Positions 1,198-59,548 of a stretch of 64,000 nt of DNA are shown here, piece after piece. Numbering within the stretch: position 1 is the stretch's first letter; each line of letters starts with the position of its first letter. Source of the stretch: Segatella baroniae DSM 16972 = JCM 13447 (GTDB taxonomy: Bacteria; Bacteroidota; Bacteroidia; Bacteroidales; Bacteroidaceae); assembly GCF_000426585.1 (NCBI RefSeq), contig NZ_AUFQ01000002.1, positions 186,001 to 250,000 of the forward strand, written 5' to 3'. A program made the translations under genes and the position numbers. The notes under the pieces were generated by a model. That model worked only from the letters and a program-made list of their open reading frames with translations. It was not told where the DNA came from and did no database searches.

Positions 1198-3495
1198 ATG
1201 AACATCAACAGAACAACAATGACTCAAAAAAAACAACAAAACAGGCGCATGCCTGCCGGTAATCCACTCCAGCCCCTTCGTTCCTTATCCCGCACGTTCG
1301 TGCTTGCGCTGCTTGCCCTGGCAGCCTTCTCTTCGCTTTCGGCCAAGCGGGTGACGCCGCAAAAGGCCCACGACATCGCGCTGAAATACGTGCAACCAGA
1401 CCGTCATCGGCCCTCCGTTACACGCTCAAAGGGCAGCTTTGAGACGGCAATGGAGCCTTTCTACGTCTTCAACGACACGCGGGGCAAGGGCTTCGTCGTG
1501 GTCGCCGGCGACGACGCCATGGGCGAAGTGCTCGCCTACAGCGACACGGGCCGGCTGGACACGCTGAACGCCAACCCGGGCGCAAGGTTGCTGTTGCAGG
1601 CCTACCGCGAGCGTTTCGCGCAGCTGCAACAGCACCCCGAGACGGCAAAACCGAGCACACGGGCCGTCCCCACGTACAAAGCGGTGGCGCCGTTGCTGTC
1701 GTGCAAGTGGAATCAGGACTATCCCTACAACAAGAAAACGGGCTATCGCTACACCGGTTGTGTGGCCACGGCGATGGCGCAGATGATGTATTTCCATAAA
1801 TGGCCCACCCGAGGAAAAGGTGAGAACACTTATATCGTTTCGTACGACAACAGGACTTTACATGCCGATTTCAGCAAATCGCGCTATGACTGGGCACACA
1901 TGAAAGATTGGTATGACAATCGTCACCACTATACCGATGGGGAAGCGGACGCCGTCGCTCTGCTGATGAGCGATGTGGGCATTGCTGCCAACATGCAATA
2001 TACCCCCTCTTCGAGCGGCGCTTACGACAACGCAGCCGAACGTGCCTTGCAAAACAACTTCGATTACACTACCGCCCTTGTGACAAGAGCTGACGAGGGC
2101 ACGGCGGGCTTCACCGAAATTGTGCGGCAGGAACTGCTCAACGGTTTTCCCGTATATCTCTCCGGATTTTACAGTCTGGAAGGAAGCGGACATGCATGGG
2201 TGACCGACGGTCTGAACGACAAGGGACTTTTCCACATGAATTTCGGATGGGGAGGACAAAGCGATGGCTACTTCTCGCTCACCGCAACAGATGTCGCACA
2301 AAGCGGAAGCGAATTTGGCGGACGGCCATTGTCCTTCAAATTCAGGCTCACCGCTATCCTTGCCCACCCCAACAAGGCCGATGCGAAACCCATAGACCCA
2401 TCTCTTTTGCCCGACAGTCCTAAACTCAAGTTCAACTTAGGCGGCAGTCTGCGCTTACCCGAAGGCCACGCCAAGACCTTCGCTACTACAACGATTCTTC
2501 CTGCGGAGATGTGTGAATTTGTCAACAAAGGCAAGGATTTCAGAGGCGATATCGGTGTCGGCATCTTCGATATGGAAGGCAAACTGCTGAAAATATGCCC
2601 ATCTGACGACCACGCCACAGGAGGTTTCACGCAACGGATGTACGCCAACTACGACAATGGCGCCATGAAAACCGACTATCTTATCAACGTTCCGCAAAAG
2701 ATAAAGGTTGATGTTTCAGGACTTACCGACGGCTATTACCAGCTTCTTCCCATTTGTGTTCCGAAGAAAAATGACGGTAAATGGGGCGAATGGACACGCA
2801 TGAAACTGGCTCCACGCATGGAAATAGAAATCAAAAACAAGATGGTACGCGTATCGGAAGAAGGCTTCTTCGAGGCTGGTTTTCAACTTTCCGAACATCC
2901 ATCGAAGACGAATTTCAAGCCCGGAGACGAAGAAAAGGTATATTTCGCCGTCAGAAATAAAGGTGGGTTGGAGCGCACTTGCTACGCCAAACTACAGTTG
3001 CTGGGCGCGAACGATCAGGTTATGCTGGAAGTTCGGCAAGAGAATAAAACGGAGTTGACAGGGTTCGACGTCACCCTGTTGCCTCTTACCATCAAGATTC
3101 CCGCAGATTTCGCGGAAGGACGCTACCGCACCAAACTGGAATTGATTTACGCCAATGGCAACGGCATTGACGATTCCGAGGCCGAACGACATACGGTTGC
3201 CAAGGTGCACGGCAATGACGAAACGCTCTTCGACATCTCGTCACAGGCCACCCGCATAGAGAATACACCGACAACCGACTTCCGTCTGACCATCGATGGC
3301 AATACATTGACCGTACAGGGCAAGGCTTTGCAATGGATAAAGATCTTCGACCAGACAGGACGACTGCTCAAGCAGGCCGCAGCCACGAGCAAGCACAGTG
3401 CCGTTCTTTCGCTCAGCGGCCTTCCACAAGGCGTTTATCTCATGCAGGCAGCCGATGGCGGACATGTCTACGCCCGTCGTTTCCTGAAGCGATAA
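1198..3495 (+). CDS. Secreted C10 (streptopain-type) cysteine protease with T9SS tail
   Basis: A papain-fold cysteine endopeptidase of the streptopain/PrtT family, probably made as a zymogen. A hydrophobic export signal lies at about 34-48 and an inhibitory prodomain at about 50-155. The catalytic Cys188 is in TGCVATAMAQMMYFHKWP, the catalytic His332 in GHAWVTDGL, and a conserved FGWGG follows near 349-353. Beta-rich domains follow from about 390. The last 70 residues form a type A sorting domain (QWIKIFDQTGRLL, then LPQGVYLM, ending RRFLKR), so secretion by the type IX system is likely. The start at 1198 is the first ATG after the promoter; 1219 is equally plausible and keeps the signal peptide. 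A frameshifted relative of this gene lies at 37161-39697. Confidence 0.9.
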   Translation: MNINRTTMTQKKQQNRRMPAGNPLQPLRSLSRTFVLALLALAAFSSLSAKRVTPQKAHDIALKYVQPDRHRPSVTRSKGSFETAMEPFYVFNDTRGKGFVVVAGDDAMGEVLAYSDTGRLDTLNANPGARLLLQAYRERFAQLQQHPETAKPSTRAVPTYKAVAPLLSCKWNQDYPYNKKTGYRYTGCVATAMAQMMYFHKWPTRGKGENTYIVSYDNRTLHADFSKSRYDWAHMKDWYDNRHHYTDGEADAVALLMSDVGIAANMQYTPSSSGAYDNAAERALQNNFDYTTALVTRADEGTAGFTEIVRQELLNGFPVYLSGFYSLEGSGHAWVTDGLNDKGLFHMNFGWGGQSDGYFSLTATDVAQSGSEFGGRPLSFKFRLTAILAHPNKADAKPIDPSLLPDSPKLKFNLGGSLRLPEGHAKTFATTTILPAEMCEFVNKGKDFRGDIGVGIFDMEGKLLKICPSDDHATGGFTQRMYANYDNGAMKTDYLINVPQKIKVDVSGLTDGYYQLLPICVPKKNDGKWGEWTRMKLAPRMEIEIKNKMVRVSEEGFFEAGFQLSEHPSKTNFKPGDEEKVYFAVRNKGGLERTCYAKLQLLGANDQVMLEVRQENKTELTGFDVTLLPLTIKIPADFAEGRYRTKLELIYANGNGIDDSEAERHTVAKVHGNDETLFDISSQATRIENTPTTDFRLTIDGNTLTVQGKALQWIKIFDQTGRLLKQAAATSKHSAVLSLSGLPQGVYLMQAADGGHVYARRFLKR

Positions 3496-7628: not shown

Positions 7629-7799
7629 TGAAATGTGCAGTGTGCAGTGTGAAATGATGGGCGGCTGTCTTGCAAGAGGGCTGCTTTGGCACGCTAAAAG
7701 GGCCGCTTTTAGCGCGTAAAAGCTTTGCTTTTAAAAGCTGAAAAGGCAGCTTCTGCATTTCAGCCGCCCATCATTTCACACTGCACACTGCACATTTCA
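7629..7799. repeat. MITE-like element with 39-bp perfect terminal inverted repeats
   Basis: The arms 7629-7667 and 7761-7799 are exact reverse complements over 39 bases. They are made largely of GTGCAGTGTGAAATG-type words and enclose a 93-bp core that is a 22-bp repeat array. No gene and no clear target duplication is present. It ends 34 bases before the GH2 promoter and would fold into a very stable hairpin if transcribed. Confidence 0.75.
7673..7756. repeat. 22-bp phased repeat array (copy A)
   Basis: About four units of 22-23 bp, each starting AAAAGnnnnnCTTTT-like (for example AAAAGGGCCGCTTTTAGC). Same family as the arrays near 19.4, 29.5, 35.4, 36.2, 36.8 and 52.2 kb. Confidence 0.7.
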
Positions 7800-7832
7800 C
7801 ATTTCAAAAGCAGCCATTTCAAACGTTTTTCG

Positions 7833-7861: not shown

Positions 7862-11065
<3,204 letters not shown>

Positions 11066-11271: not shown

Positions 11272-14046
11272 ATGCACAAATCCCTCCTACTGCTGTTCAT
11301 CAGCCTTTCATCCTTGAACTTCGCCGTGGCGAAACCACAGGATTCCGTCGCGCAAAGCCTTCGGGGCGACGCCAAACAGAAGAAACCACTGACCCACGCG
11401 GTCTACGACGACTGGCAAACGGTCGACAAGCCGAAACTCTCCACGCACGGACGCTACGCCGCCTGGGAAGTGAATCCCCAGCAAGGGGACGGCATGCTCC
11501 GGCTGCGCGACGCCTCCGGACGCCTGATGACGCTGCCCCGGGGCCACCAGTTGCAGTTCACCGACGACGAACGGTTTGCCGTGACCCTCGTGAAACCTAC
11601 CTACGCGCAGACCCGACAGGCCAAAATCAAGAAAAAGAAGAAGGACGACATGCCGCTCGACTCGCTGGTCGTGATTCGTCTGAACGACTTCACGACACGG
11701 ATGTTTCCAAGGGTGAAGTCGTTCGACATGGCCCGACACAACAACAAGGTGGTGGCTTTCGCGCTGGGAAAGGACGACAAGGGCAAGGAAAAGAAGAAGG
11801 AAAAGAAGGACGCGGCCACCGACATGATGGTGTATTTCTTCGCCGACGACGACACGCTGCGCCTGCCCCACGCCGACAGTTACGCGATGGCCAACCACGG
11901 CCGACGGCTGGCCTACGTGGAAAAGACCGACAAGCACAAGTGCGTCATGAAGGTCGTGGACCTCGACCGTCGGCAGACGGTGGCCGTCAACGACACGACC
12001 GCCTACCTCTCGCGCCCCTCTTTCAGTTGGCAGGGTGACAAAATGCTGTTCCTGGCTTCGGCCGACACGGCCAAGACGGGCAGCAAGCACTGTGCCATCC
12101 ATGAATACAAGGTGGGCGGAAAGCCACGCACGCTGCTGCCCACGGACTACAGCGACGGTCTCGACAAGGGCTGGGGTGTCACCGAAAACAGCGCGCCTTT
12201 CTATTCACGGGACGGCAGACAGACCTTTGCGGGCATACAACCTTACGTGAATCCCGACGATACGACGAAGTATGACTTTGAAACGGCCGAGCCAAACATC
12301 TGGCGTTACGACGCCGACGAGCTGCCGCCCATGCTCAAGGCACGCATGGCCGACAACCGGAAGCAGACGATTCTCTGCGCTGTCGTGGGCGGACGGCTGG
12401 TTCAGTTGGGCCGTTCGATGTACGACCGTGTGCGGCTGGCCGACCGTGGCAACGCTTCCTACGCGCTGTCGACCGACCACACGGCGGGCAAACTGGCCGA
12501 ACAGTGGGACTTCCAAGGCCGTGTGCAGCTTTCGTTGGTCGACACCCGTGACGGCAGTCGCACGCCGATAGCCGACACGCAGCTCGAAAACGCCATCATC
12601 TCGCCCGACGGCAACCATGTGGCATGGTTCGATTTGCGGCAGCGGCAATGGCTGGCGTGGAGCCGGAAAGACCGTCAGACCCGCAATCTCACGGCCCGGC
12701 TGAAGACGGCCTTCCATGATGAGGACGAAGACCATCCCATGTTGCCCGCGCCCTACGACCGCGCTTATTTCACCACTGACAGCCGCCAGCTGCTCGTGGC
12801 TGACCGCTACGACGTCCATCTCCTGTCGGTCGACGGCAAGGACAGCCGCTGCCTGACCCGCGGAACGGGTCGGCGCGACAGCCTTCAGTATCGTTATGTC
12901 AACCTGCCACGTCCCGACGACATCGAGGGAGTGGACTTGAAACGACCCATCTGGCTGCAAATGTTCAACTATCGGGACAAGACGCAGGGCTACGCCACGA
13001 CCGACTTGCGGGCCAACCTGCACGTCGTCGACGCAGGGCCTCACAGCTATGGCGCGCTCACTACAGCCGATTCGGCCCCGGTATGCCTATATAGGAAAGG
13101 TGACTTCGCCCACCCGATGGACCTCTACATGCGCACTGACACGACGCTCCGATTGTCTTTCATCAACCCTCAGCAGCAGGATTACCTCTGGGGCACGGCC
13201 GAACTCCATCGCTGGAAGGCCTTCGACGGCACGCCACTCGACGGCCTTCTCTACAAGCCCGAGGGCTTCGACCCCAGCAAGAAGTACCCCGTGATGATCT
13301 ATTTCTACGAGCGGCGCAGCGAAAGCCTCTACACCTACTACTCGCCGGCCCCCAGCCGCTCGATCGTCAACATACCGTATTTCGTGAGCAACGGCTATGT
13401 GGTGTTCGTTCCGGACATCGTCTACCGCCCCGGACATCCCGGAGAGTCGGCCTACAACTGCATCGTGAGCGGTGCCGAGTCGTTGACGAAACTGCCGTGG
13501 GTCGACGCCGCCCACATGGCCATCCAGGGACAGAGCTGGGGCGGCTATCAGGTGGCCTACCTCGTGACCCGCACCAACATGTTTGCCGCTGCAGGCGCGG
13601 GCGCTCCCGTCAGCAATATGACGAGTGCCTACGGCGGTATTCGCTGGGAATCGGGCATGAGTCGCCAGTTCCAATACGAGCAGACGCAGAGCCGCATCGG
13701 GCAAGACCTGTGGAAAGGATACGACCTTTACGTCGAGAACTCACCCCTCTTCGGCATTCCGAAGATACAGACGCCGTTGCTCATCACCCACAACAACGCC
13801 GACGGAGCGGTGCCCTACTACCAGGGTATCGAGATGTTCATGGGCATGCGGAGGCTCGGCAAACCGGTGTGGCTCATCGAATACGACAAGGAAGCCCACA
13901 ACCTGCGGGAACGAAAGAACGCCAAAGACCTGAGCCAACGCCTCTCCGACTTCTTCGACCATTATCTGAAAGGCGCGCCCATGCCCGATTGGATGAAGCC
14001 CGACACACCTTACATCATCAACGGTAAGGAAATAAAAAGGAAATGA
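11272..14046 (+). CDS. S9 prolyl-oligopeptidase-family peptidase, secreted
   Basis: A serine exo- or oligopeptidase of the prolyl oligopeptidase/DPP-IV clan, 924 residues. A signal peptide covers residues 1-20 (ending AVA). Most of the N-terminal 660 residues form a beta-propeller that limits substrate size, with two Lys-rich loops (around 122-128 and 168-182, KKKKKDD and KEKKKEKKD). The catalytic domain holds Ser755 in GQSWGGYQ, Asp844 in HNNADGAVP and His876 in EAHNL. It probably trims peptides in the periplasm, alongside secreted proteases such as the C10 enzyme. The start is the first ATG after the promoter. Family assignment is firm; the choice between dipeptidyl peptidase and acylaminoacyl peptidase is open. 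Confidence 0.9.
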   Translation: MHKSLLLLFISLSSLNFAVAKPQDSVAQSLRGDAKQKKPLTHAVYDDWQTVDKPKLSTHGRYAAWEVNPQQGDGMLRLRDASGRLMTLPRGHQLQFTDDERFAVTLVKPTYAQTRQAKIKKKKKDDMPLDSLVVIRLNDFTTRMFPRVKSFDMARHNNKVVAFALGKDDKGKEKKKEKKDAATDMMVYFFADDDTLRLPHADSYAMANHGRRLAYVEKTDKHKCVMKVVDLDRRQTVAVNDTTAYLSRPSFSWQGDKMLFLASADTAKTGSKHCAIHEYKVGGKPRTLLPTDYSDGLDKGWGVTENSAPFYSRDGRQTFAGIQPYVNPDDTTKYDFETAEPNIWRYDADELPPMLKARMADNRKQTILCAVVGGRLVQLGRSMYDRVRLADRGNASYALSTDHTAGKLAEQWDFQGRVQLSLVDTRDGSRTPIADTQLENAIISPDGNHVAWFDLRQRQWLAWSRKDRQTRNLTARLKTAFHDEDEDHPMLPAPYDRAYFTTDSRQLLVADRYDVHLLSVDGKDSRCLTRGTGRRDSLQYRYVNLPRPDDIEGVDLKRPIWLQMFNYRDKTQGYATTDLRANLHVVDAGPHSYGALTTADSAPVCLYRKGDFAHPMDLYMRTDTTLRLSFINPQQQDYLWGTAELHRWKAFDGTPLDGLLYKPEGFDPSKKYPVMIYFYERRSESLYTYYSPAPSRSIVNIPYFVSNGYVVFVPDIVYRPGHPGESAYNCIVSGAESLTKLPWVDAAHMAIQGQSWGGYQVAYLVTRTNMFAAAGAGAPVSNMTSAYGGIRWESGMSRQFQYEQTQSRIGQDLWKGYDLYVENSPLFGIPKIQTPLLITHNNADGAVPYYQGIEMFMGMRRLGKPVWLIEYDKEAHNLRERKNAKDLSQRLSDFFDHYLKGAPMPDWMKPDTPYIINGKEIKRK

Positions 14047-14171
14047 AGTGTGGAATGTGAAATGTGAAGTATGAAATGAGAAGTGTGGAATGTGGAGTGT
14101 GAAATGAGGAATGTGGCAATGTGGAATGAAAAACTTCACACTTCACATTTCACACTTCACACTTCACATTA
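14047..14171. repeat. Heptamer low-complexity repeat forming an inverted repeat
   Basis: The left part is GTGTGAAATGTGAAG-type sequence; the right part (14131-14168) is about five CTTCACA heptamers, so the two halves are largely complementary. It fills the gap between the converging S9 peptidase and glnN genes and could terminate both. Related words form the arms of the 7629-7799 element and occur near 35370. Confidence 0.75.
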
Positions 14172-17726: not shown

Positions 17727-19385
17727 ATGTGGCTCGAATCCTTATTCAGCATCCATTCAGCCGTGCAGGCCGTAGCGGTCCTGTCGGCCGTCTGCACCCT
17801 GGGACTTGCCCTCGGCAAGCTCCACTATAAGGGCATATCGCTCGGCATTGCCTTTGTTTTCTTCATCGGAATCATAGGCGGTCACTACGGTTTCACGCTC
17901 GACCGCGACGTCCTTCTCTTCGCCGAGAGCTTCGGACTGTCCATGTTCGTCTACGCACTCGGCCTCTATGTAGGCCCCAACTTCTTCGGTTCGCTGCGCC
18001 ACGAGGGCATTCAGCTCAACCTGTGGGGGCTGGGCGTCATCCTCACGGGCACGCTCATGGCCATCTTTCTGTGCTATGTCTTCCCGGTGAACGTGGCCGA
18101 CATGGTGGGCATTCTCTGCGGGGCGACCACCAACACGCCTGCTTTGGGTGCCGCACAGCAGGCCTTGGAGCAGATGGGACTGCCGAGTGGACGCGCCGCT
18201 CTGGGCTGCGCCGTCACCTATCCGCTGGGCGTCGTGGGCGTCATCCTGGCCATGGTGGTCATGCGCAAGCTCTTCGTGAAGCCCATCGACCTGCACCCCC
18301 ACTCGCCGACGGACGAAGACCACACCTATGTGGGCCAGTTCGTGGCGGTCAATCCGGCCCTGGCGGGCAAGACGCTCGCCGCCATCTCGCTCATGACCCA
18401 CCGCCACTTCATCATCAGCCGCGTGTGGCGCAACGGCCAGGTCATCGTGCCCCACGCCACCACCGCGCTGCAAGTGGGCGACAACCTGCTCGTGGTGACC
18501 AACAAGGACGAAGTGCCAGCCATGGAAATCCTGTTCGGACAGAAGGTGGAAAAGGACTGGAACCGCGACCAGATAGACTGGAACGCCATCGACTCGAAGG
18601 TCGAAAGCCGGGTCATCGTCATGACAAAGACCCAGCTCAACGGCAAGAGGCTCGACCAGTTGCAGCTCCGCAGCACCTACGGCGTCAACGTGAGCCGCGT
18701 CACCCGCGGCGACATCAAGCTGCTGGCCACCGACAATCTGCGGCTGCAATACGGCGACCGCCTGACCATCGTGGGCCCGCCGGCCGACATCGACCATGTG
18801 GAGGCCTTCCTGGGCAACGCCGTGCAGACGCTGAACGAGCCCAACCTGGGCGCCATCTTCTTCGGAATGCTGCTCGGCGTGGCCGTCGGCACCATCCCCA
18901 TCGACATCCCTGGCATGACGGCCCCCGTGCGCCTGGGCATTGCCGGCGGCCCCATCATCATGGGAATCGTCATCGGCGCGCTCGGCCCCCGCGTGCATTT
19001 CATCTCCTACATGACCCGCAGCGCGGGCCTCATGCTGCGCAAGCTGGGCCTGTCGCTCTATCTGGCGTGTCTCGGAATCGACGCCGGCGGCCAGTTCTTC
19101 GAGACTGTCGTGCGCCCCGAAGGCCTGATGTGGGTGGGCATAGGCTTCGTGCTGACGGTGGTGCCGGTGCTCATCGTGGGCTGCATCGCGCTGCGATTGC
19201 ACAAGTTCGACTTCGGAACCATCTGCGGAATCCTTTGCGGCAGCATGGCCAACCCCATGGCCCTGACCTATGCCAACGACACGATAGAGGGCGACACGCC
19301 GTCCGTCAGCTACGCCACCGTCTATCCGCTGGGCATGTTCATCCGCGTGGTCATCGCCCAAGTGCTGGTCATGTTTCTGGCATAG
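17727..19385 (+). CDS. AspT/YidE/YbjL-family transporter with two RCK_C domains
   Basis: An inner-membrane antiporter-like protein of 552 residues. It has about five hydrophobic segments in residues 1-180, two consecutive soluble RCK_C (TrkA-C) domains at about 205-290 and 295-375 (AGKTLAAISLMTHRHFIISRV and NGKRLDQLQLRSTYGVNVSRV are parallel motifs, quoted in part), and six more segments to the end. The two membrane halves are internal repeats (GILCGATTNTPALGAA versus GILCGSMANPMALTYA), as in the AspT antiporter duplication. The family includes the aspartate:alanine exchanger, but most members have unknown substrates, so none is assigned. It lies in the same direction as the pyridoxal kinase gene; the tail is followed directly by a 22-bp repeat array. 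Confidence 0.85.
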   Translation: MWLESLFSIHSAVQAVAVLSAVCTLGLALGKLHYKGISLGIAFVFFIGIIGGHYGFTLDRDVLLFAESFGLSMFVYALGLYVGPNFFGSLRHEGIQLNLWGLGVILTGTLMAIFLCYVFPVNVADMVGILCGATTNTPALGAAQQALEQMGLPSGRAALGCAVTYPLGVVGVILAMVVMRKLFVKPIDLHPHSPTDEDHTYVGQFVAVNPALAGKTLAAISLMTHRHFIISRVWRNGQVIVPHATTALQVGDNLLVVTNKDEVPAMEILFGQKVEKDWNRDQIDWNAIDSKVESRVIVMTKTQLNGKRLDQLQLRSTYGVNVSRVTRGDIKLLATDNLRLQYGDRLTIVGPPADIDHVEAFLGNAVQTLNEPNLGAIFFGMLLGVAVGTIPIDIPGMTAPVRLGIAGGPIIMGIVIGALGPRVHFISYMTRSAGLMLRKLGLSLYLACLGIDAGGQFFETVVRPEGLMWVGIGFVLTVVPVLIVGCIALRLHKFDFGTICGILCGSMANPMALTYANDTIEGDTPSVSYATVYPLGMFIRVVIAQVLVMFLA

Positions 19386-19402: not shown

Positions 19403-19534
19403 AAAAGGGCTGCTTTTGCGTCGCAAAAGCAGCCCTTTGACTTTCCAACGGCAGCCCTTTCAGCCGCCAAAAGCTGTGCTTTGAGGTTCCAACGGCAGCC
19501 CTTTCAGCCGACAAAAGCAGTGCTTCCGGAAGGC
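19403..19534. repeat. 22-bp phased repeat array (copy B, best preserved)
   Basis: Exactly six units of 22 bp starting at 19403, 19425, 19447, 19469, 19491 and 19513. Each begins AAAA or AACG, then GCAGCCCTTT or a variant, then about 8 variable bases ending in CC or GC. The first unit is inverted in its core, so units 1-2 also make a 17-bp-arm hairpin (19404-19420 with 19422-19438) that could terminate the transporter transcript. Confidence 0.85.
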
Positions 19535-19553: not shown

Positions 19554-20444
19554 TCATATAATGTAGTTTTCTGTGTTGATCTCGGGCATGGCGCCTTTCT
19601 GGGTGCACACGTAGGCGCTCACCTTGACGGCCCGCTTGTGAGCTTGCTCGATGGTCTTGCCCTCCAGGATGGCCGCCGTGAAGCTGCCGGTGAACGAGTC
19701 TCCGGCGCCAACGGTGTCGGCCACTTCGACCTTCGGCGTGTCGACGAAGCTCTTCTTCTTGGGCGCGAAGACGTAACTGCCGTTCACGCCGCAGGTGAGC
19801 ACGAGCATTTTGAGGTTGTACTTGCCCAGGATGAGCCAGCACTTGTTCTCTATGTCGAGGCCGGGATAGCCGAAGAGGCGGCCGATGGTGACGAGTTCCT
19901 CGTCGTTTATCTTGAGGATGTCGCAGGCATTGAGCGAGTCGCAGATGACCTCCTTCGTATAGAAGTTCTGTCGGAGGTTGATGTCGAAGATCTTGAGGCA
20001 GTCCTCGGGCGTGGCCGCCAGGAACTTCTGGATGGTCTCCCGCGACACGGTGTTGCGCTGGGCGAGCGACCCGAAGCACACGGCGCGGGCGTGGCGGGCC
20101 ACGTTTTCCAGCTCGGGCGTGAACGGAATGTTGTCCCATGCCACGTCGGTCTTGATGTCGTAGGTGGGCACTCCTTCGTCGTCGAGCGTCACCTGCACCG
20201 TTCCCGTGGGATAGTCGACCGTCGGCATGATGTAGTGGAGTTTCTTTTGGTCGAACTCCTTGCGTGCCTGGTCGCCCAACATGTCGTTGCCCAGGGCGCT
20301 GACGGCCATGGCGTCGAAGCCGAACTGGCTGGCGTGATAGGCGAAGTTGGCGGGGGCGCCGCCCAGTTTGGAGCCTTCGGGCAGACAGTCGAACAGCGCT
20401 TCGCCCAAGCCCACTACGTATCTCTTTTGTTCTTTCTTGGTCAT
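19554..20444 (-). CDS. Fructokinase, PfkB family
   Basis: Phosphorylates fructose released from fructans, feeding it into glycolysis. The 296 residues carry the PfkB signatures: GEALFDCLP and GGAPANFAYH near the N-terminus (the sugar-binding GG motif at 28-29) and DTVGAGDSFTG at 243-253 with catalytic base Asp249. No signal peptide: cytosolic. It lies 47 bases downstream of the MFS permease gene on the same strand, and the intervening DNA is an octamer repeat tract, so the pair is probably one transcript controlled by the operator at 21803-21863. A permease-fructokinase pair next to GH32 is the same logic as in the Bacteroides thetaiotaomicron fructan locus. Strict sugar specificity is inferred from this context. 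Confidence 0.9.
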   Translation of the reverse strand: MTKKEQKRYVVGLGEALFDCLPEGSKLGGAPANFAYHASQFGFDAMAVSALGNDMLGDQARKEFDQKKLHYIMPTVDYPTGTVQVTLDDEGVPTYDIKTDVAWDNIPFTPELENVARHARAVCFGSLAQRNTVSRETIQKFLAATPEDCLKIFDINLRQNFYTKEVICDSLNACDILKINDEELVTIGRLFGYPGLDIENKCWLILGKYNLKMLVLTCGVNGSYVFAPKKKSFVDTPKVEVADTVGAGDSFTGSFTAAILEGKTIEQAHKRAVKVSAYVCTQKGAMPEINTENYII

Positions 20445-20450
20445 GACGTT

Positions 20451-20508
20451 TACTTTTTTACCTTTTTCACGTTTTTACTCTTTTACTTTTTTTACCTTTT
20501 TACCTTTC
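20451..20508. repeat. Octamer tract TTTTTACC-type
   Basis: A run of TTTTTACC/TTTTTACT-like 8-mers. It overlaps the last codons of the MFS permease gene: the tail KVKR and its TAA stop are written in the tract. Confidence 0.75.
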
Positions 20509-29027: not shown

Positions 29028-29465
29028 ATGGAAAAGCCCAAGCTTGTTTCCGGCCCTCCCTCGTCTTCTGAAACCGCCGCTTCCCATCCGTCCCCCAACG
29101 AAATCGCAGGGGCCGTCGCGTCGGCACTGCGCGAGAAGGCCCTGGCGAAGCTGGAACGGGCCCGCCCCTACCAGGCCCCGACGAGACCGTCGATGAAGCG
29201 TCGCTGCGACTACAACGACTACACGGCCCCTAAAATCTACATGGTCACGCTGATGGTGGAGGGCCGCAGGCCGCTCTTCGGCACGCTCTCGGGCGACCCG
29301 CACATCCCTTACGCCACGCAAGAAAGGGCCCGGCTCATCGTATCACAGGCCGAGCATCACAACGAGCGGACAGCCTTCAGCCGCAACAAGTGCCTGGAAC
29401 TCAACGAAATGGCCCGACTGCTCTGTCAGGACAGCCCTCCGCCTTTCCAAGAAGCCCCCTTTTAG
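29028..29465 (+). pseudogene. Probable remnant of a REP-associated (Y1-type) transposase
   Basis: An open frame of 145 residues. Residues 1-50 are low-complexity; then KRRCDYNDYTAPKIYMVTLM, VEGRRPLFGTLSGD and a helix with ARLIVSQAEHH. This resembles the first strand and loop of REP-associated tyrosine transposases of Bacteroidetes (DY..P.IYMVT....RRPLFG). The catalytic HUH motif and the Tyr helix, normally 60-110 residues further on, are absent. The frame instead ends (ARLLCQDSPPPFQEAPF) inside a 22-bp repeat array. I infer a 3'-truncated gene. It could instead be a domesticated small protein; no strong promoter supports expression. Confidence 0.5.
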
Positions 29466-29536
29466 CTGGCAAAAGCTGTGCTTTGATCTGGCCAAAGGCC
29501 CCCTTTCGCTGCCCAAAAGCAGCCCTCTCACAATCC
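29449..29536. repeat. 22-bp phased repeat array (copy C)
   Basis: Exactly four units of 22 bp (starts 29449, 29471, 29493, 29515), for example AAAAGCTGTGCTTTGATC and AAAAGCAGCCCTCTCACA. The first unit forms the 3' end of the transposase remnant. One more core (AAAAGCAGCCCTTTT) lies at 29579-29593. Confidence 0.8.
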
Positions 29537-29633
29537 TTTTTTACCTTTTTACCCTTTTACTTTTTTACCTTTAAAAGACAAAAGCAGCCCTTTTACTTTT
29601 TCATCTTTTTACCCTTTTACTTTTTTACCTTTG
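29537..29633. repeat. Octamer tract containing the regulator promoter
   Basis: Two runs of TTTTTACC/CTTTTACT 8-mers separated by one 22-bp-type core. The last octamer reads TTTTTTACCTTTG and is the -7 element of the next gene. Confidence 0.75.
29626..29633 (+). promoter_or_regulatory. -7 element for the fructan-locus regulator
   Basis: TACCTTTG, ending 17 bases before the ATG at 29651. Confidence 0.6.
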
Positions 29634-35305: not shown

Positions 35306-35361
35306 AAAAGGTAAAAAGGTAAAAAGGTAAAAAAGTAAAAAGGCCATTGGAAAGGTAAAAA
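35306..35361. repeat. Octamer tract (GGTAAAAA-type)
   Basis: Complement-strand version of the TTTTTACC tract, directly upstream of the nuclease-helicase promoter. A short heptamer-type word GAAGTGTGAAATG follows at 35371-35383. Confidence 0.75.
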
Positions 35362-35401: not shown

Positions 35402-35468
35402 AAAAGCTGCCCTTTCACCTCCTTAAAAGGCAGCTTTTAGCGTGTGAAAAGGCAGCTTTGATTTTCCC
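35402..35468. repeat. 22-bp phased repeat array (copy D)
   Basis: Three units of 23, 22 and 22 bp starting at 35402, 35425 and 35447, with cores AAAAGCTGCCCTTTC, AAAAGGCAGCTTTTA and AAAAGGCAGCTTTGA. Confidence 0.8.
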
Positions 35469-35575
35469 AAAGAACCACGTTTGAAAAGTAAAGGATAAAA
35501 AGAGAAAAGAGAAGAGTGTAAAGTAAACTGTGTCAGGTCGGTTCATAGGAGCATGGCCATGGTGCACTGCGCACT

Positions 35576-36142: not shown

Positions 36143-36252
36143 AAAAGCGGCCTTTCGGGCTTGCGGAAGGGCCGCTTTCACCGCCCAAAAGGACTGCTTT
36201 CAGAAACCAAAAGCTGCCCTTCTGCAAGCCGAAAGGGCAGCGGTGGCAAACC
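36143..36252. repeat. 22-bp phased repeat array (copy E)
   Basis: Five consecutive units of exactly 22 bp (starts 36143, 36165, 36187, 36209, 36231), cores in both orientations (AAAAGCGGCCTTTCGG, AAAAGCTGCCCTTCTG). It runs into the 3' end of the SnoaL-like gene. A strong GC hairpin (17-bp arms, one mismatch) lies just beyond at 36277-36317. Confidence 0.85.
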
Positions 36253-36756: not shown

Positions 36757-36864
36757 AAAGCTATCCATACTGCGCAAGCCGCCTGCCGAGTCGCCCGACC
36801 TGCCTTTTTGGGGAATCGCAAGCCCGCTTTCACGGCGAACATGCAGCCCTTTTGCAACGCCCAA
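36757..36864. repeat. Degenerate 22-bp array (copy F)
   Basis: About five units of 21-22 bp with decayed cores (GAAAAGCTATCC, AAGCCCGCTTTCAC, ATGCAGCCCTTTTGC). Recognisable mainly from the period. Confidence 0.5.
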
Positions 36865-52226: not shown

Positions 52227-52292
52227 AACGCAGCCCTTTTGCACGGGCAAAGGGCTGCTTTTGGATTGCCAAAGGGCTGCTTTGAGCCGCTG
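52227..52292. repeat. 22-bp phased repeat array (copy G)
   Basis: Three units of exactly 22 bp (starts 52227, 52249, 52271): cores AACGCAGCCCTTTTG, AAAGGGCTGCTTTTG and AAAGGGCTGCTTTGA. The first two units face each other and make a hairpin (52230-52258). Confidence 0.8.
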
Positions 52293-52345
52293 AAAGCATG
52301 CTGATGAAAACGCAACGGACAAGCGGTGACAAATCGCCGGAGCGG

Positions 52346-59376: not shown

Positions 59377-59460
59377 CGCAATAATCTTTGTTTCCGCACG
59401 CCGTTTGACATTTTTTGGGCCGGCGATAATACATCTTAACGGATGGTGGACAGGCTTTGG

Positions 59461-59548
59461 AAAGGTAAAAAAGTAAAAAGGTAAAAGGGTAAAAGGACTT
59501 GGGAAAGGTAAAAAAGTAAAAAGACAAAAGGGTAAAAGGGCAAAAAAA
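59461..59548. repeat. Octamer tract (GGTAAAAA-type)
   Basis: Ten or so GGTAAAAA/AGTAAAAA words between the divergent msr and dsbD genes, upstream of the dsbD promoter. Confidence 0.75.

Follow-up and report, generated by a model that had tools for sequence, protein, structure and literature searches.

Iterons and the ends of Tn7 and Mu, with their 22-bp transposase sites, are examples of protein sites that recur at intervals of roughly two helix turns, and some BIMEs of E. coli carry IHF sites. Nucleoid organization in Bacteroidota is, to our knowledge, little known. Among dispersed intergenic repeats, REPs are described as hairpins tagged by GTAG or CGTC, often associated with a RAYT transposase (PMC3733652), and the REP/BIME elements of E. 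coli as dispersed intergenic palindrome arrays, some of them with gyrase sites (PMC6379681). Within the Bacteroidales, the BrickBuilt MITE of Porphyromonas gingivalis consists of tandem short units in scattered intergenic copies, and PINSR is described from the Prevotella intermedia/nigrescens group (PMC4596501; PMC4755523).

The arrays reported here are likewise dispersed and intergenic. Unlike REPs, they rarely carry a tag (GTAG or CGTC within 23 bp of only 8 out of 132 units on contig C2), they avoid pairing in the core, and they keep an exact 22-bp lattice. The transposase family of REPs, PF01797 (Y1/RAYT, IS200-type), showed no association with them, being present in 12 out of 29 array-rich and 17 out of 29 array-free genomes and missing from G012, G102, G341, G374, and G402. 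On tag rarity and this distribution, a REP/RAYT system was rejected. Of the two options raised by the earlier note, a protein-binding array or a REP/MITE-like family, membership in the latter is thus unsupported by these tests, and a phased protein-binding array appears to be the better reading of the sequence. Iterons and Tn7/Mu ends have sites with a direction, confined to a single origin or end of an element, whereas the lattice presents dyad cores at up to hundreds of chromosomal positions. BrickBuilt differs by units of 23 nt with no spacer between them, by leader and tail segments that have IS5-like ends, and by a number of 19 copies (PMC4596501).

PINSR (177-184 copies) is also intergenic and lineage-specific, and it is described without terminal inverted repeats; the section describing it presents a single 188-bp sequence and mentions neither lattice, dyad, nor cross-species family (PMC4755523). 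A repeat at eight loci of genome G156 contains 22-bp lattice units, and this genome may belong to the P. intermedia group, since its two contigs resemble the two chromosomes of P. intermedia. Compared by description, PINSR is probably one instance of the lattice element, and the statement of the earlier note that no such element had been described was probably too strong. No description of a 22-bp dyad lattice was found in the open-licence papers searched. We consider the element to have an anatomy of its own among dispersed intergenic arrays and do not file it as a member of REP, BrickBuilt, or PINSR.

Arrays in the window

The window, meaning the whole 64-kb stretch of DNA analyzed (G000:C2:186001-250000), belongs to a genome of 3.13 Mb. 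Six of the seven loci listed by the earlier note hold as arrays, and a lone unit is found in addition:

1428..1440, no strand assigned, lone high-scoring unit (27.2 bits) without lattice neighbor
7675..7753, no strand assigned, four-unit array (units at 7675, 7697, 7719, 7741)
19404..19526, no strand assigned, six-unit array on the 22-bp lattice (cores start at 19404, 19426, 19448, 19470, 19492, 19514)
29450..29528, no strand assigned, four-unit array (units at 29450, 29472, 29494, 29516)
35403..35481, no strand assigned, four-unit array, the fourth unit weak (12.0 bits)
36144..36244, no strand assigned, five-unit array, about 0.7 kb from the array at 35403..35481
52227..52283, no strand assigned, three-unit array; a weak site of 7.6 bits lies at 52293

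The remaining locus, 36757-36864, which the earlier note had called degenerate, was not confirmed as an array: it scored one site of 6.6 bits and no other above 5 bits. All steps between the six core starts of the 19404-19526 array are exactly 22 bp, and this array occupies the convergent gap between a gene for an AspT-type permease (17727-19385, +) and a gene for a pfkB-family kinase (19554-20444, -). The gene functions adjoining the window arrays are mixed. A weaker unit at 7807-7819 stays on the lattice beyond the array at 7675, and an extra unit at 29581-29593 lies 1 base off the lattice of its neighbor. The arrays at 35403 and 36144 are the sole close pair on contig C2. The window gave no match in a tRNA scan or in an Rfam scan at the gathering threshold.

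Two further types of short repeats were observed in the window. Arrays of about 8 bp (AAAAGGTA / TTTTTACC) at 20449-20507, 29538-29572, 35306-35343, and 59455-59546 often stand beside 22-bp arrays, and arrays of about 7 bp (TGAAATG / ACTTCAC), intergenic and in both orientations, occur at 14043-14168 and near 7630-7660, 7770-7800, and 35370. Words of the 8-bp type like TTTTACCT read outward from arrays in 10 out of 124 flanks and inward in 1.

Unit anatomy, lattice, and placement

Opposite cores are spaced by 23, 45, or 67 bp in one order and by 21 or 43 bp in the other, which places the symmetry center at base eight, so that the dyad is 13 bp long. The 14-bp core of the earlier note is consequently better read as the dyad AAAG-N5-CTTT followed by a 9-nt spacer than as a directional 14-mer, and the core is seen in both orientations because it is a dyad. 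With strands averaged, the unit consensus of G000 is AAAG-S-NNN-S-CTTT, the spacer leaning to R-S-NNN-S-Y. Samples from three genomes (G000 contig C2, G366, and G374; strands averaged) have a G+C share of 0.84-0.99 at lattice positions 3, 6, 9, 15, and 19 and of 0.00-0.12 at positions 0-2 and 10-12. The AA/TT power of their arrays peaks at 11-11.5 bp with nothing at 22 bp, and no 11-11.5 bp peak is present in the other intergenic DNA of the three genomes. Taken together, the G+C positions and the 11-bp peak describe a lattice with one A- or T-tract per helical turn.

The strict period of a dispersed family, as claimed by the earlier note, was borne out. On the 330-kb contig C2 the pattern AAAG-N5-CTTT occurs 79 times, and 60 out of the 61 distances between sites no more than 100 bp apart are multiples of 22 (22 bp in 26 cases, 44 bp in 17, 66 bp in 13, 88 bp in four; the last one is 87 bp). 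When every distance from 14 to 30 bp was counted, pairs were found solely at 22 bp, namely 26 on C2, 10 in G366, and 49 in G374. The reversed control of the exact core AAAAGCAGCCCTTT is absent from the G000 genome, and direct exact pairs, with gaps of 4-12 allowed, had a gap of 8 in five out of five cases. A weight matrix of the unit detected 147 units on C2, 127 of which have a neighbor at 22, 44, or 66 bp (background: 14 matches in one shuffled C2 contig). C2 holds 27 arrays of at least two units; together with six further 20-kb stretches we count 36 arrays of 2-7 units each, apart from one with 19 units. The longest array seen in G000, at G000:C2:34850-35257 outside the window, has 19 units with one 21-bp step and lies in a convergent gap.

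Placement between or at the ends of genes likewise holds beyond the window, with 56 out of 57 arrays of the three samples located in gene gaps of at least 120 bp according to simple gene calls; in a separate pass over C2, 2 out of 27 arrays fell inside predicted genes. Arrays occupy 13 out of 59 convergent, 14 out of 83 divergent, and 29 out of 209 codirectional gaps, and a convergent preference over the rest is not significant in the three samples (p=0.17); neither a promoter nor a terminator bias is significant. C2 by itself leans weakly toward convergent gaps (6/10 vs 20/75 others, p=0.06).

In two of the three genomes, arrays keep away from each other over about 5-8 kb. On C2, 1 out of 26 intervals is shorter than 4.5 kb, with 7.0 expected from random dealing to gaps (p=0.0009), and within 400 kb of G374 there are 0 out of 16 intervals below 7.5 kb vs 4.2 expected (p=0.004) and none below 4.5 kb vs 2.4 expected (p=0.06), the interval cut-offs having been picked after the intervals were seen. 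Over the first 1.41 Mb of G374, 2 out of 55 intervals between strict triples among the matches listed are below 8 kb, where a uniform null expects 14.6. In G366 avoidance was not significant (0/12 intervals below 4.5 kb vs 1.5 expected). An even spacing of arrays can be rejected, as only short-range exclusion was found: the interval CV is 0.60 on C2 (p=0.015), 1.0 in G374, and 0.84 in G366, and the intervals of the latter two are not regular overall.

Species-specific letters and flanking palindromes

The exact core AAAAGCAGCCCTTT is abundant only in G000 (57) and G012 (63) among 60 genomes, with one or two copies in four others. Searched without fixed letters, a dyad pair on the 22-bp lattice is found in 112 out of 398 genus genomes, about 50 of which have at least 10 pairs, up to 526 in G402. 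The remaining 286 have no pair, showing that a chromosome can do without the element. Triples were present in all eight array-rich genomes tried, with controls at 0. The inner letters vary by genome (TTGAA, TGGCA, and GGGAA in G374; AGCCG in G108; ACGCC and GTGCC in G156; GTTAG in G341; GTCAG in G334), some being common to species, as TTGAA occurs also in G187 and TGGCA in G302. The G374 cores fall into a TTGAA-type and a TGGCA/GGGAA-type class that are mostly pure per array, and in 400 kb of this genome 88 out of 99 within-array unit pairs are of like class vs 53.7 expected. Reversed-control matches occur in about 27 out of 398 genus genomes, including G333 (17), G354 (14), and G367 (143). 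The last genome also has 154 forward lattice pairs, and its control matches (TTTC-N5-GAAA) point either to a different type of lattice or to a genome very rich in repeats.

Beyond the genus, few genomes have the lattice. Order-wide, 11 out of 392 genomes match, including two of the genus; seven have a single match, close to the five single matches of the control, and more than one match is found only in G562 (16) and G703 (7, near-perfect inverted repeats). A scan of named genomes for the paired core, from which the window's own genome records may be left out, returned Prevotella illustrans only, with four stretches. Three of these are identical to stretches of G012, identifying G012 as P. illustrans A2931, with G000 in the same GTDB genus. 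A plasmid or phage origin is dismissed, as one distant-mode search gave no plasmid match to the window array and viral contigs are nearly empty of the strict triple pattern (three stretches in two contigs). Two four-unit arrays with the core AAAGCATAGCTTT (L247, L248) lie on one 49.6-kb IMG/VR contig, perhaps in host sequence that flanks a provirus.

For six array loci, the orthologs in G000 and G012 were set side by side. At two loci the arrays are identical, a third differs in length by exactly 44 bp with few letter changes, and two, one of them the window array at 19404, have diverged with the phase kept and without indels. The G012 gap orthologous to that of the 35403 array carries another array-bearing repeat. 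At the two diverged loci, changes affect 15 out of 88 AAAG/CTTT positions, 21 out of 55 inner positions, and 46 out of 99 spacer positions (frame vs spacer, p=2e-5), with some bias from picking the units by AAAG/CTTT in G000. Six of the 15 frame changes lie in the last, degenerate unit of the window array; without this unit, the counts are 9/80, 17/50, and 39/90. A slippage minisatellite was rejected, since the phase persists while the letters diverge, in agreement with the earlier note, which saw the spacing kept and considered ordinary slippage the poorer fit. A repeat of about 300 bp with a degenerate array and the flanking palindrome described below (box B) in reverse order was observed at G012:C138 ~8330-8720 (L234) and at L088 ~1900-2200.

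In 400 kb of G374, 16 out of 17 arrays align over about 230 bp as a composite of TGTATATTTATGCA and box B (YAANNNNTTGAWTWTCAANNNNTTR), then four units whose spacers are specific to the slot, an incomplete fifth unit, and two more TGTATRTTTATGCA-like boxes; the element ends are similar near-palindromes TGTATRTTTATGCA, direct as written. The near-palindrome CTGTATATTTATGCAG flanks G374 elements on both sides (L112, L121, L148-L172) and is likely a further, putative protein site. Box B consists of WATCAANNNNTTR doubled symmetrically; this string co-occurs with IHF in the parts of the literature consulted, and we take it to be the IHF consensus.

Outside the last core, the spacer dyads of the lattice lie at 4 and the core dyads at 15, modulo 22, and box B is consistently within one base of such a dyad in 9 out of 13 genomes with matches. 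Its centers lie 26 nt from the outer core in 15 out of 15 G374 matches and at 71 in 8 out of 8 G156 loci, five of which have a second, off-phase match at 152. Nine out of 11 near-array matches in G366 are at 4, 26, or 48 and the remaining two at 14 and 120, so that 10 out of 11 are within one base; in G108 the centers are at 14 or 36 in five out of six loci and at 49 in the sixth, all six being within one base. The other five of the nine genomes are G341 (4, one locus), G063 (26), G102 (71, weak), G077 (37 and 26), and G089 (14). Phases are mixed or off the dyad in four genomes: G247 (83 and 26), G187 (128 and 104 in two out of four loci, none in the other two), G000, and G012. High-scoring box B in the latter two is found in 9 out of 122 flanks vs 1 out of 435 other intergenic pieces and 0 out of 366 shuffles, with phases of 4 and 6-7 and one at 95, some of these being copies or orthologs of each other and thus not all independent. 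At a lower threshold, C2 has four near-array matches, at 26, 51, 86, and 95, one of them in phase. The one locus sampled in G402 and the two sampled in G212 show no box B. An IHF-like palindrome flanks arrays in many species, and it is rare in G000.

Candidate roles of the lattice

Conserved geometry with changing letters points to selection on the helical layout and, by extension, to a protein-DNA assembly on phased DNA. Our tentative preference, put at a little below even odds, is that the window array is one copy of a dispersed Prevotella element serving as a phased landing strip for a putative dimeric protein that would bend or wrap DNA in chromosome organization. The AAAG-N5-CTTT cores on the 22-bp lattice would all face one side of the helix and could be bound cooperatively, assisted by a predicted IHF/HU-type bender at the flanking palindrome. 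Such an assembly might pin supercoils or mark chromosomal microdomains, as proposed for the BIMEs of E. coli, and the species-specific middle may have arisen as arrays and protein diverged in step, alongside array copying within the genome. A nucleoid role like that of BIMEs would agree with the IHF-like box, the 11-bp phasing, and the way copies avoid each other. Weighing against this reading are the rarity of box B in G000, its mixed or off-dyad phases in some genomes, the non-significant avoidance in G366, the many genus genomes with no pair, the weak convergent lean of C2, and the reversed-control matches. Curvature is described to pin plectonemes (PMC6301789), and A-tract periodicity has been linked to nucleoid proteins (PMC3940949).

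The main rival, which we judge unlikely on balance, is a non-autonomous mobile repeat, in which a transposase provided in trans would bind at the array and the avoidance would be target immunity. The 22-bp transposase sites at the ends of Tn7 and Mu offer a parallel to the array; G374 copies are spread in the genome with conserved flanks of about 230 bp, and conserved flanks are also found in G156 and G108. The patchy presence across the genus, the likeness of units within arrays, and the mutual avoidance over several kb would be accounted for as well. On the other hand, neither terminal inverted repeats nor target duplications have been established (in the empty-site comparison, G374 relatives match at 64-85 percent identity), Y1 transposases, the sole transposase family compared, show no association, viral contigs and plasmids yield next to nothing for the pattern and the window array, respectively, and two of the six orthologous arrays are identical in G000 and G012.

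An operator array of a transcription factor regulon would explain dyad cores, cooperative spacing, and the presence of arrays in divergent gaps; lacking a significant gap-type preference and with functionally mixed neighbor genes in the window, this reading is distinctly improbable. Still a little less credit goes to a gyrase or intrinsic supercoil-pinning site, i.e., curved 11-bp-phased DNA without a dedicated protein. The 11-bp AA/TT phasing suits it, flanks of the E. coli gyrase motif have a 10.75-bp G+C periodicity within about 130 bp, with BIME-2 as gyrase sites (PMC6379681), and curvature is described to pin plectonemes (PMC6301789), but it leaves the species-specific inner letters, the slot-specific spacers, and the absence from most of the genus unexplained.

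Regarding RNA structure, neighboring units in inverted orientation, for instance the first two of the 19404 array, can fold into a long hairpin, and many of the G108 pairs listed are inverted. Spacer positions 1 and 7 pair above expectation (78 vs 63.5 in G000, 58 vs 47.8 in G012), positions 2 and 6 below it, and pairing between neighboring units is near expectation. Inner core positions pair below chance (45 vs 83 and 35 vs 57 expected in G000; 42 vs 55.8 and 21 vs 42.5 expected in G012), which makes hairpins unlikely. Neither these pairing counts nor the gap types, with arrays also in divergent gaps, fit the hairpin plus T run at gene 3' ends of an intrinsic terminator, and no outward T skew is common to the arrays of C2, G366, and G374. 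Readings as hairpins, bidirectional terminators, or mRNA ends were rejected and keep very little probability.

Extending the phased landing strip to a new class of chromosome-organizing element, with a 22-bp dyad lattice, an in-phase IHF-like site, its own fast-evolving protein in each species, and kb-spaced anchors of supercoil microdomains, is a doubtful step that we offer as a speculation. A fixed geometry, species-specific letters, and sites that number up to hundreds in a genome make it testable which protein reads the lattice. The lattice family likewise makes it testable whether arrays on the chromosome define supercoil domains in bacteria other than proteobacteria, and it may explain PINSR, a published Prevotella repeat without known function.
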